NCBI GenBank assembly: GCA_030674185.1
Contig: JAPXFY010000026.1
Span: forward strand, 34,247,167-34,311,166
Origin: Monoplex corrugatus
Taxonomy: Eukaryota; Mollusca; Gastropoda; Littorinimorpha; Ranellidae
DNA length: 64,000 bases
Reading direction: 5' to 3'
Every line of letters begins with the position of its first letter. The stretch's first letter is position 1. The notes under the pieces were generated by a model. That model saw only the letters and a list, made by a program, of their open reading frames with translations, was not told the DNA's origin and did not search any database. The position numbers and the translations under genes were made by a program. Shown piece after piece: positions 10,701 to 19,700 of this stretch.

Positions 10701-13700
10701 ATTATGTAATAATACAGACCAAAGTAATCCTCCAAATCCTAGACACATCTGGTCTAAATTATAAGCTGATACATAAAACAGAACAAAACCCGACAGTACA
10801 AAGAACCGTTATAACCATCCTCTACCAGTGAATGAGTGCTCAACCCTGTTCAGAGTTCTCTTAACTTAACGAGAAAGGAGAGGACTGCTCTCAAACATCT
10901 GTCCCAATTGTAATGAAGTTTTCATTCAACTCATCCCCCCCCCCAAAAAAAAATTTGAAAATGAAACCTTTACTCTCTACTCATAACCATCACTTTCTGT
11001 ACTGTACTTGTGCTGGATGTATCAGGCGAGACATTATCCATGCCGTTTATATGAAATGCCTTGTCAGCATGATACTCTACATATATACTACTCATATAAC
11101 TACCCATTATATTTTGTATCTCTGAAGTTTTGAAACTGTTCAAGATGTCTTCTTAGTTTTGAGTGATCTGGTTAGCGCCCATGCATTGTATACATATGAA
11201 CCTGTCTTAACCTTTCTAAATGTCTAAATGTTAGGAAGACCGGCATCTGTTTGTTATATATAACAGACATGACTCTTAAGAAGCTTTCTCTTGAACACAG
11301 TGTCTTGCTCAAGCTCAGGAAGTCTGCCAGATAAATGCTGGCAGAATTGAGTACAGTGCACACAGTATCATCCAAGTGCCATGAATCCTTTTGAACAATC
11401 CAAACCCAAACTAAATGTATCATATTAGGAAGTCCTATGTATATGGACCTGTCTTAAGTACTAAAAAGCATTCTCTGGTACGTATTCTAAATGTCTGACT
11501 ATTAAGAAGCCCTATATGTATGAACCTATACTGAGTATTAGAAAACATTCTCTTGAACAAATGCTAAATGTTTAATATTAGGGACCCTCTCTTGAACCAC
11601 CTCTAAATGTCCAACTATGGTGTGCACATAATTACTACCACTCTGACTCAGGCACGGTCCAAACACTGCAAATATATGCTGCTACAGTATTTGTGACCAA
11701 AGACTTGATTTCATCAATAACCAAAGATGCAACAGCCTATTCTTTTACACACACACACACACACACACACACACACACACACACACACACACACACACAC
11801 ACACACACACACACCACACACACGTTTTCAAAAACAAGTGTAAATGACTGATCAAACAGAATGCAAGACATGCTGATGATAAGCCATATTCAACACACAC
11901 TGGTAGAAGCAGATATATATATGGCAAGCATAACAAAACAAAATGTGAATGTTAAAAAACGTGTATGAGTAAAAAATAAAAGTCACATCCTAGTACATAG
12001 GCACAAGTTCTGTCAAACTACAAGAGAATAAATTTCTTCCTCCTTTTCCTCTACACATGCACACTTACCCCACCCTGACACTGCTCAGTTGCAGTATAAC
12101 CTACAGTCAAATTTACCAATCCACCCAGCAGATAGGTTGGGGGATTTCTTCAAAATTTGCTCACAAATATGCATACAAATACACAAGCTACTTTTTCTGA
12201 AAGTGAAAGTATCAAAACTCTTTCTCTCTCCTTCTTTCACATGTGCAACGACTGAACTCTTCTCTGTTTTCATCATACACCCACAAAAAAAGGAGGAGGA
12301 GGAAGGAGAAACTCACTGTCCTCCTCTCTTTCTTCCTCATGCTTTCCCGAATCTTCTATCTTCAAAGATAGTACCCTGCCATGGTGATGCACAAAAACAA
12401 ATGCCAACTGCTATGAATATGTATGACACAGCCAGATGACTGGGGGGAAAAAATAAATGAGATTGGTTATTTGGTGTCAGCAGACTAAAACAAATACCAA
12501 CTGCTATGAATATGACACAGCCAGCTGAATGGGGAAAAAGGAAATGAGATACATTATTTAGTGTCAGCAAAAGGGGGGTGTAACTGTAAGCTTTATGTGT
12601 CAGCCAATATATAATACCAGAAGCAGTATGACAATAACTACTACAGAGATCGTAAACACTTGCATATCATGATTTGCCAGTCTAACACACAGAACACATG
12701 ATTTGCCAGTCTAATAAACAACTGAGTCATTACTTCACAACACTATAGCCAAGTCTATGATTTTTTATTTCAAGCCATGAAACACACAAACTTTCTCTCT
12801 TTCCACTCTTCACATACACACACAGACACAATCACATACATAAAAACATGTACACACACACATTTTAACATAATTCCACATCATGAAATTCACTAAACTG
12901 TTGCAATAACCAAAACCATATATATATACATATATATATATATATATATATATATATATATATATATATATATATATATATATATATTATATATATATAT
13001 ATATATATATATAATATACAACTTTATATCCAAAACAAAAAACAATGCTGACAACAGAACCATCCAATGAGTTATTATAAAAATGGAAGGAAAGAAAGAA
13101 AGCAGCATACCATTAAAAAAATAAAAACAACACAAAACTTTTTAACAGTAAGAAGATGGCTGGTTTATAAAGTTAGTCACAACACACAAACACCACCACA
13201 CGGACACACACTGCAAGGGAGCATGTGATGGGTATGTGGTGAGATGAAAAGGGGATCAAAGCTGGATGAGCTTGGGAGAGTGACGCTACGTACCATCTGG
13301 GCTATGCCCCGGTTAGTCATAATGTATCGTGCGTGAATGAGGCCGTAGAGCATCTCGGCGGCCTGCTCTATCAGGTCACTCTGATTGGGGTTGTCCTCCA
13401 GTTCATCATCTACAGCAGACACAACAACAACACCGTCACTGCACCACCAACACACTGCATCCTGTGACCACTGACAACAAGCTGATGCCCTTTTCTCTGT
13501 ATGTACACATCTGACTCTCAGACTATGACAACTGCAAAGTAGGAAATAATGCTGAAGTCTCTGGAGCCTGTCTACCATAGACCTTCCCTTTTTCGGAGTT
13601 AAAAGTTATTGTATAACTGTGAGTCATTCTACTGAGTACATCCCAGTAATAGACACAGCCAACTTCAATGAGTCTACTCCATTTTTTGTTTCAAGTTCCT

Positions 13701-16700: not shown

Positions 16701-19700
16701 GTGCAGTGCTGAATCAATGAATGGTGCAGTGACGCCATTAGCCACACATAAACAGAGAAGTAATAGGAACCAACTCTACAGTTGAAACAGGGGCCATGCT
16801 CATGACTAGTCCCACGCAAGTCGAGCCAGAATTGGAGACAGCTCACAGATGAAGTTGTTGGGGGTTTCGGGTAGGGTGGGAGTAGGGTGTGGGAGGGTTT
16901 TCTTTTATCTTTTGTTACCTACCATCTTACATATGCCTGCGTTTGTGAGAATGAATCTAGAGTGAATGAGCCCATACAGCATCTCTGCGGCTTGCTCTAT
17001 CAGGTCGGAGCTGGGGTTGTCTTCCAACTCTTCCTCTAAAGAGACATGACAGTCACACAAGCTTTTAACGTTCTCTTCATTCACCAGGAAAACAAACTGT
17101 TTCAAAACAAGCAAACAGTTATAGTAAATTATACACACAATACATTACAATACACTAACTAGAAAATTTAAAAGAAGAAACTCATCCACAAATACAGAGG
17201 TGACAGACTGCCTATTCATATTATAATCCAAAATGTCACCACATAAAAAAAATATTGAAAAAGCTGTAAGTTAAACTTTTAAAGTAACAAACACAGCAAC
17301 GAATACCAATTTTATCTAATATCAGAAATACAAATTGCCTATACTAATATTTCAACTTACGAGTTTTTGCAAAAGCAAACACTCTCTAGATCTGGAGGGG
17401 AAAAAAAAAAGCATTCCTCCTTCCCCAGTTTGCTTTGAATAAAGTCTATCCCTAGTTCTCCAAATTGTGATTTTTTTCCTTCATGTTAAAATCAATGCAA
17501 ACCAATCATTAAACATCAAAAATACAGTAAATCAATTGAGAGAAACCCTCATTGCAGGCAAAAGAAACTGTACTAAAGATTAAATACTCAATTGTAAGTG
17601 TGAATATTCACACTAGTTCACTTCATGTCATAAATTCTGAACATCATTTGGGATTGTTTTACATGCTAGCTGTGCAAACACACACAGAAACAAAAAGAAA
17701 AGGAAAACAATGGCAACTCTTGTTTTGGGTAAACCATTCCTTTCAAAAAATGGCTGAACTTCTGTTTCCATTTAGTCTATCTTCCCGTTCCAAACATGTA
17801 CCTAACCTATAAGCAAAAGCAAAAGCCATCAAATGCAGCATACTGAATATCCTGTATGCATTTTTAATACCATAAATTCTGCACAGAAAACTGTAGACCA
17901 CATGCCAATTAGCGCTTAGATTTGATTTTATCAAGATTTTGCGCTATATAAATAAAATATTGTATTGTATTGTAATTACCAGACAAACAAAATCTCAGCA
18001 AACTGGGGTTTTTTTATTTTATTTTATTTTATTTATTTATTTATTATTATTATTATATTATTTACAATTTTCAACTACTGACCTTATCAAATGAGCAGAC
18101 TAGCTGCCAATCATAGGGTAAGGCTTGGGAATTGTTCTTGAACGTTTATTCTGCCAGTGTAAATCACCCCATGTTAAAAGACATTTTTTTCTCCGGGAAC
18201 AAATAATAGTGGAGTGGTGGTGGTGACCCACTAACTAGTGGTGGGGTGCTCACTCTGGATATACAAGGTCTCAAGCATCCTTTCTAAGATTACAGAGAAA
18301 TTTTTCTCTGACCCGCCTTCTCCCCACTCTCCGTTAAGTTTTTGGGTGCTGGTTTTCAGATGAAACAATTTGGTCCCATATGCAGAATGCTTTCACCTTT
18401 TTCAGTGCAGATGAACATGCATGTAGCAAAACACATTCTCACAGAAAACAAAGAAACATTGGTAGCACTGCATCGTGCCAATGTGCTGACATCTTCAAGT
18501 TTCTGGCTAGAACTAGAAGAGTCCATATAATATCAGTCATCTCACAGGAAAATCTGGTTAAATTGAAAATAACAACATTAATGAAGGAAGTACAAGGGTA
18601 AACAAAGATGAAACATGACAAAAAAGAACAAGACTACTAAACAGGACAAGACTACTAAAACACACCTGAAGAAACAATGATTAAAAAACTCAGATAAAAA
18701 TGAGACAGTACACCTCTATCAAGTGAGGAAATGACATTGCAATCAAAGCCAGTCTAACAGTAACAATCTCTCCTTCAATACTTGGAAGTTTTTGCAAAGG
18801 TCAATGTAACCTTGAAGCCGCATCAGATTAAATAAAACTTGACATGAAGCAAGGATAATGGTAAGCTTGTTTCGTAAGTTGTTACAACAGTGAAAACAGA
18901 TCATATGTACTGGTACTGTCATAAGTTCTTGAGAAAATGCTGTACAAACACCTGCCTGTAAAGGTGATGATTTCAGACAATTTCTTCAGTCTGTGTGATT
19001 CTGACCTAGGACTTATGACTTCCAAACTCATGCACTCACGGCTTCTTAAAGTTCAAAACCTTTGATTCAAATCTGATGATCATGATCCATCTACTGATCT
19101 AGAATAGTAGAAACAACAAAGAAAATCTTATCGCATTTTTTATCACAAACACCTTCTTCAATAATATGAAATATTCTCCTATTTAAAAAAAGGAAGACTG
19201 AAAGAGACAAAACAAGAACAAAAGAAGCTGTAAAATCAGAAACGACACAAAGACACAGTAAAAGTAAAACTCACCAGGTTCTAAATCCAGAATCATGTCC
19301 AAAGCCTGCCTGTAATGAGGCACCTGCTCGTTTAGCCCTGTCAGGTTGAACTTGTCCTGGATGTAGTCCTCATCCACCTGAAGTCAGTGCACCAATACTT
19401 TCAACTTCAAAGCAGCAGAGGTTCTCTCAGTTAACACACAACACACACACACACACACACACACACACACACTGGCAGCTCAATGATCTCTACTGCAAGA
19501 TGGGAGGTTTCACCTTAAATTTCAGATTTAGTTTGGAGTTGTTTAAGGATTTATCAGTTTTGTACAATTCTTGTGTTTCATTCAAAATCTGCCAGCCATT
19601 ATACAGCAGACTCCTTTAGCCTGCACAAAACCCTATGTGCTGGCAAGGTCCTGAAATAGGGAGGGGAGGAGACAGACCTATGAAATACTAAACTGACATC

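Follow-up and report, generated by a model that had tools for sequence, protein, structure and literature searches.

Organization of the CK2beta gene and its two versions of exon 3

CK2beta, the regulatory part of a kinase, is usually treated as one nearly unchanging protein in animals. We analyzed a 64-kb stretch of DNA from the snail Monoplex corrugatus (referred to as the window), whose minus strand contains a complete CK2beta coding region in seven intact exons, as established by tblastn and a gene model. Two of these exons, here called 3a and 3b, encode different versions of the same protein segment. On the minus strand, the coding part of exon 1 (21231-21160) starts with the ATG at 21231 and leaves in phase 0, and exon 2 (19377-19275) leaves in phase 1 at a gtgagt donor. 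There follow the variant exon 3a (17035-16923; 113 nucleotides [nt]), which reads EEELEDNPSSDLIEQAAEMLYGLIHSRFILTNAGICKM including the split codon, and the canonical exon 3b (13409-13294; 116 nt), which reads DDELEDNPNQSDLIEQAAEMLYGLIHARYIMTNRGIAQM. One stretch of 3a specific to the variant form is HSRFILTNAGICK. The coding region continues with exon 4 (7040-6965), which enters in phase 0, and exon 5 (3563-3374) and ends with the coding part of exon 6 through the stop codon (1722-1615).

When exon 3b alone is used, a canonical CK2beta of 221 amino acids is obtained, and the use of 3a alone gives a protein of 220 amino acids. The two forms are identical outside exon 3, and the zinc-finger and CK2alpha-binding parts are intact in each. 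A first-pass annotation of this DNA had described both exons as possessing intact acceptors and donors, and these were confirmed (ctctttag/gtaggt for 3a and gctgtag/gtacgt for 3b), as were the phases that it had assigned to both (1 at entry and 0 at exit). We also reproduced the early stops that it had predicted: joining the full 3a and 3b at their main sites leads to a TGA 12 codons into 3b, and the use of neither exon results in an exon 2/exon 4 junction that reads GAT TGA. Because exon 3 passes from phase 1 to phase 0, an in-frame tandem copy at the same sites is impossible and skipping also breaks the frame. The frame itself therefore imposes exclusivity on the protein, since the double or null use of exon 3 at these sites destroys it.

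Two of the earlier statements required adjustment. That protein results only from the use of one exon at a time is correct for the main donors; it does not extend to a weaker donor of 3a at 16931, which would give an in-frame product of a shortened 3a (3a') and 3b. In addition, the two exons do encode alternative forms of the region 59-97, the length of which differs in that, counting the split codon, 3a contributes 38 and 3b 39 residues. Taken together, it is likely, judging from the DNA sequence, that a single CK2beta gene carries two copies of exon 3, each in frame singly at the main sites, which are probably mutually exclusive and would give rise to two full-length forms differing at residues 59-97. 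The reading of 3a and 3b as mutually exclusive duplicated exons that the annotation had put forward is supported by the finding of no other locus in the search of the assembly, the intact splice sites, divergence of a purifying type, and recurrence in other snails.

No third copy of exon 3 was detected in the window by tblastn (E up to 10). The 3.018-Gb assembly (7621 contigs) was searched with the profile PF01214, and the 12 best candidates were scored. This search returned 5 matches, every one an exon of this CK2beta gene, and a second CK2beta gene was not found among the candidates scored. The 113-nt DNA of exon 3a matched only itself and exon 3b (77%) in the assembly. As no other locus matches, a second version of CK2beta would, within reach of these searches, come from splicing alone. 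A separate paralogue or retrocopy as the source of the variant was rejected, this locus being the sole match among the best candidates scored in the assembly.

Divergence of exons 3a and 3b and their occurrence in other molluscs

Over 38 aligned codons, 18 are identical between 3a and 3b, 11 show silent changes, and 9 show replacements; one further codon is missing in 3a. The Nei-Gojobori method yielded 14.8 silent differences for 23.5 sites and 15.2 replacing differences for 90.5 sites, corresponding to a silent distance (dS) of 1.38, a replacing distance (dN) of 0.19, and a ratio of 0.14. The intron flanks of both exons, compared without gaps over 60 bases on each side, are not similar (12/60 and 18/60 identical positions). 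The low dN/dS, in the absence of flank similarity, is consistent with an old duplication under constraint at the protein level. In a check for gene conversion, 16 of 27 degenerate codons were identical, a somewhat high value compared to the 11.8 (standard deviation, 2.5) expected at saturation. Taken alone, the segments encoded by 3a and 3b scored 31.9 and 36.9 bits, respectively, against the Pfam family CK_II_beta (PF01214), for which the cut-off is 27, and the 3a isoform aligns to human 1jwh_C across residues 1-211.

Three protein searches were made, using the full-length protein, residues 57-99 of the 3a isoform, and a variant segment from an octopus that is described below. The proteins considered were the best 120 of 3880 matches, the best 120 of 170, and 111 of 111, amounting to 266 proteins overall. 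The database was clustered at 90%, so that near-identical isoforms may be hidden. When relatives were inspected for the variant and for signs of its decay, gene models of Pomacea and Nucella were found to carry it before the canonical segment, and no decay was seen. The Pomacea canaliculata protein P0121 reads ...EDDLDDNPSSDLIEQAAEMLYGLIHARFILTNAGI followed by the canonical DELEDNPNQ..., and the Nucella lapillus protein P0002 reads ...EEDLEENPSSDLIEQAAEMLYGLIHS... followed by the canonical segment. Over segments shortened by the models, 31 of 35 residues in P0121 and 24 of 26 in P0002 are identical to the window 3a, and P0122 matches it at all of the 38 residues compared. Given this recurrence, Pomacea and Nucella, too, likely produce two forms of CK2beta. 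The protein tail is the same in the window, Nucella, and Pomacea, which indicates a caenogastropod origin of the window.

A tree of exon 3 segments was calculated from seven named rows and 67 different canonical segments, all equally long, drawn from the 266 proteins; segments of other lengths were left out. The four snail 3a rows (P0121, P0002, P0122, and the window) form one group apart from the canonical rows (91/90, below the level starred by the tool), in a tree that has few columns and whose bootstrap had not settled. The window, octopus, and oyster share an identical canonical exon 3 segment. Of the 234 segments from the 266 listed proteins in which residue 92 could be compared, 207 have Arg, 17 have Ser, 4 have Ala, and 6 have another residue. 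The bearers of Ala92 among these proteins are P0121, P0122, P0004, and P0201, which are snail or octopus-type variants.

The octopus form corresponds to "isoform X2" of Octopus sinensis CK2beta (P0004), a protein model with one variant only in which DDDGDDCVNKDQLEQAADMLYGLIHARYILTNAGLSTM replaces exon 3. A variant CK2beta product is thus already present in databases as a predicted protein. Another O. sinensis protein, P0181, is canonical in the exon 3 segment, and in P0201 an octopus-type exon is flanked by intron-like sequence, in agreement with the same exon boundaries. As in snail 3a, only exon 3 varies in isoform X2, the segment has 38 residues, Arg92 is replaced by Ala, and positions 95 and 96 are altered, the rest of the protein being typical of CK2beta. 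In contrast to snail 3a, the acidic loop and the start of the helix are much more diverged (DDDGDDCVNKDQ...) and positions 85 and 87 are unchanged. Leu89 is shared by snail 3a, the octopus variant, and human CK2beta, whereas Met89 is found in the canonical segments of the window, octopus, and oyster.

We tentatively raise the possibility that the duplication of exon 3 predates the split between gastropods and cephalopods and that molluscs have since run a two-state CK2 holoenzyme, in which splicing would swap a docking patch, with the loss of Arg92, altered residues 95 and 96, and a shorter acidic-loop joint, and would retune substrate choice or self-inhibition in certain tissues; we consider this scenario somewhat less probable than its negation. 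Forcing the five variants together in the tree costs 2.9 log units, with a p value in the approximately unbiased test (p-AU) of 0.378, and a single clade is therefore not rejected. Two observations speak against a common origin. The octopus variant is identical to the canonical segment at 24 of 38 positions, compared to 21 of 38 for the window 3a and 24 of 35 for Pomacea 3a, and in the tree it occupies a long branch beside a ctenophore and a similar sequence (a starred set of three, 100/98). Against our main reading of 3a, a length of 38 residues is not rare, having been measured in 9 of 186 segments, namely, P0004 and 8 other listed proteins, and besides the variants, Ser85 occurs in 2 and Phe87 in 4 of the listed proteins. 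An AlphaFold2 model of the octopus variant, based on 34 rows, had a mean predicted local distance difference test (pLDDT) score of 47, which is too weak to use.

Splice sites, alternative readings, and other features of the window

Donors were scored with a matrix. On this scale, the main donors of 3a and 3b scored 8.24 and 7.96, respectively, the four other donors of the gene scored comparably, between 8.16 and 10.34, and only 17 of the 441 GT sites of the stretch reached a score of at least 6. The excerpted text of PMC7969005 names as enforcers of exclusive exons a frame clash with decay of the transcript, U2/U12 incompatibility, RNA structure, and the proximity of the 5' splice site to the branch point. 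Incompatibility of U12 and U2 sites was ruled out here as a means of exclusion, every donor being GT and U2-like by inspection. Steric exclusion by a short intron was likewise discarded, as the intron between 3a and 3b measures 3,513 nt, compared to an intron or branch-point distance of less than about 50 nt for that mechanism. A distant branch point may be a means of exclusion. No match to YTNAY was observed within 60 nt upstream of either exon 3 acceptor (17036-17120 and 13410-13440, minus strand). This lack of a nearby branch-site match might leave both acceptors open to regulation.

Some of the data argue against strict exclusivity. A weaker donor, TAT/GTAAGA, lies inside 3a (16929-16931, minus strand; last exon base, 16931; score, 6.55) and would permit double inclusion, as the resulting 3a' has 105 nt, is in phase 1 at both ends, and would continue into 3b without a frameshift, with the joined frame open to the normal stop. 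A further donor at 16919 (6.29) would have the same effect. If 3a were used together with 3b through the donor at 16931, 35 residues would be inserted and the acidic loop and helix segment doubled. The gene models P0121 and P0002 fuse parts of both exons, and the former, which is a protein model only, contains the residues that this junction would give (...NAGI-Y-DELEDNP...). RNA-pairing elements did not exceed chance, in that a single long complementary match across 3a was present, a number reached or surpassed in 14 of 100 shuffles (mean, 0.14). We nevertheless regard the joint use of 3a and 3b as quite improbable. The internal donor is weaker than the main donor of 3a (6.55 versus 8.24), and both gene models look forced: P0121 is devoid of a normal N terminus and has intron-like residues inside, and P0002 has odd residues between its two segments. 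By forcing the two exons together in a single chain, these models attest to the presence and order of the exons and not to how exclusively they are spliced. A doubled helix segment would presumably strain the compact fold, and octopus isoform X2 has a single variant.

A different role for 3a would be to tune the dose of CK2beta, in which case transcripts with both exons or neither would be destroyed as an unproductive-splicing brake and the 3a protein would matter little. Double and null transcripts do stop early, and the excerpts of PMC7969005 list a frame clash followed by decay among the enforcers of exclusive exons. However, a poison exon has no need to encode a CK2beta-like protein, whereas 3a maintains a dN/dS of about 0.14 with respect to 3b and shares 31 of 35 residues with Pomacea, and we therefore consider the dose explanation unlikely. 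Least probable, and strongly disfavoured, is that 3a has no function and represents a duplicate that is either young or in decay. A decayed duplicate was rejected on the basis of the open frame, the low dN/dS, and conservation in other snails (Pomacea, Nucella, and P0122), to which the intact splice sites and a Pfam match above the cut-off can be added. Mutually exclusive use of 3a and 3b thus remains the reading that we prefer.

Elsewhere in the window, reading frames on the plus strand at 4859-6102, in the intron that separates CK2beta exons 4 and 5, match PF13843 (E values of 6e-23 and 3e-45), which we take to be a piggyBac-type transposase. The matches fall in two overlapping frames, and the transposase is thus frameshifted. 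A stretch of intron 1 (20050-20290, minus strand) resembles what is presumably the C-terminal end of a hAT-type transposase. Open stretches at 62138-62686 (minus strand) and 28539-28955 (plus strand) bear what we assume to be a likeness to the ends of long interspersed nuclear element (LINE) reverse transcriptases, and neither gave a Pfam match at an E value of 0.1. An Rfam scan of the window returned nothing at gathering scores, a comparison with phage DNA gave no match, and none of 23 pattern matches in viral contigs was confirmed as a relative.

Predicted consequences of the exon swap and comparison with known systems

By human numbering, the differences between 3a and 3b fall at positions 59, 60, 67/68 (one changed and one missing), 85, 87, 89, 92, 95, and 96. 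According to PMC9608649, the acidic loop of CK2beta spans residues 55-70 and the zinc finger residues 106-146, and the interfaces with CK2alpha are formed by residues 164-170 and 186-198. The swapped segment most likely comprises the last part of the acidic loop together with helix alphaD and the first part of helix alphaE, so that the interfaces for the dimer and for CK2alpha stay constant. Residues 92, 95, and 96 would share a face of helix alphaE (i, i+3, i+4). In the same source, Asp32, Phe34, Asn35, and Arg86 are described as forming an exposed and conserved cluster that is mutated in human neurodevelopmental disease. Arg86 is retained in 3a, as are Tyr80 and Met97, and the changes A85S and Y87F alter both of its neighbors. 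The acidic loop has been associated with the inhibition of CK2 tetramers and with stimulation by polyamines in the available text of PMC8533506. Since residues of the loop and helices are swapped and the contacts made by exons 4 to 6 are unchanged, the same holoenzyme with altered docking or self-inhibition is predicted.

We propose that an asymmetric ancestral exon 3 (phase 1 to phase 0) was duplicated. Including both copies or omitting both would then shift the frame, and nonsense-mediated decay would probably remove such transcripts; the copy that enters a transcript would be selected by splicing factors. The choice of 3a would preserve the acidic loop along with Arg86 and two buried residues, Tyr80 and Met97, with a loop-helix joint that is one residue shorter; it would flank Arg86 with the two substitutions, and one face of alphaE would lose Arg92 and gain Lys96. 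Contacts made by the zinc finger/dimer region and with CK2alpha would not be affected by this choice, and both forms are predicted to assemble into the holoenzyme, differing in the docking of partners or substrates or in the self-inhibition of tetramers by the acidic loop.

If this is true, the snail gene would provide a second version of residues 59-97 that is natural and conserved, and with it a variant of the acidic loop and the alphaD/alphaE surface that evolution has already tested. The swap of 38 residues would make the role of the CK2beta docking surface directly testable, in a region that the excerpts cited above tie to self-inhibition and the polyamine response (PMC8533506) and to the disease-linked surface cluster around Arg86 (PMC9608649).

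In a literature search by title and start of abstract, most subscription journals being outside its coverage, no description of an exclusive exon in CK2beta was found. Mutually exclusive duplicated exons are a known kind of arrangement, and CK2beta is a surprising gene for it. Diversified CK2beta forms within one animal are also described for Drosophila in PMC3359341, where CK2beta-testis and Stellate are separate gene copies, whereas in the snail the forms would result from exon choice inside one gene. A similar architecture is known from exons 4a/4b of OGDH and from alpha-tropomyosin, as presented in the excerpts of PMC7969005, in which tandem homologous exons provide alternative versions of one segment, as in CK2beta here. 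OGDH relies on a short intron or a near branch point, whereas the intron between 3a and 3b is far longer (3,513 nt), and among the enforcers named in these excerpts it is the frame clash with decay that fits the CK2beta gene of M. corrugatus.

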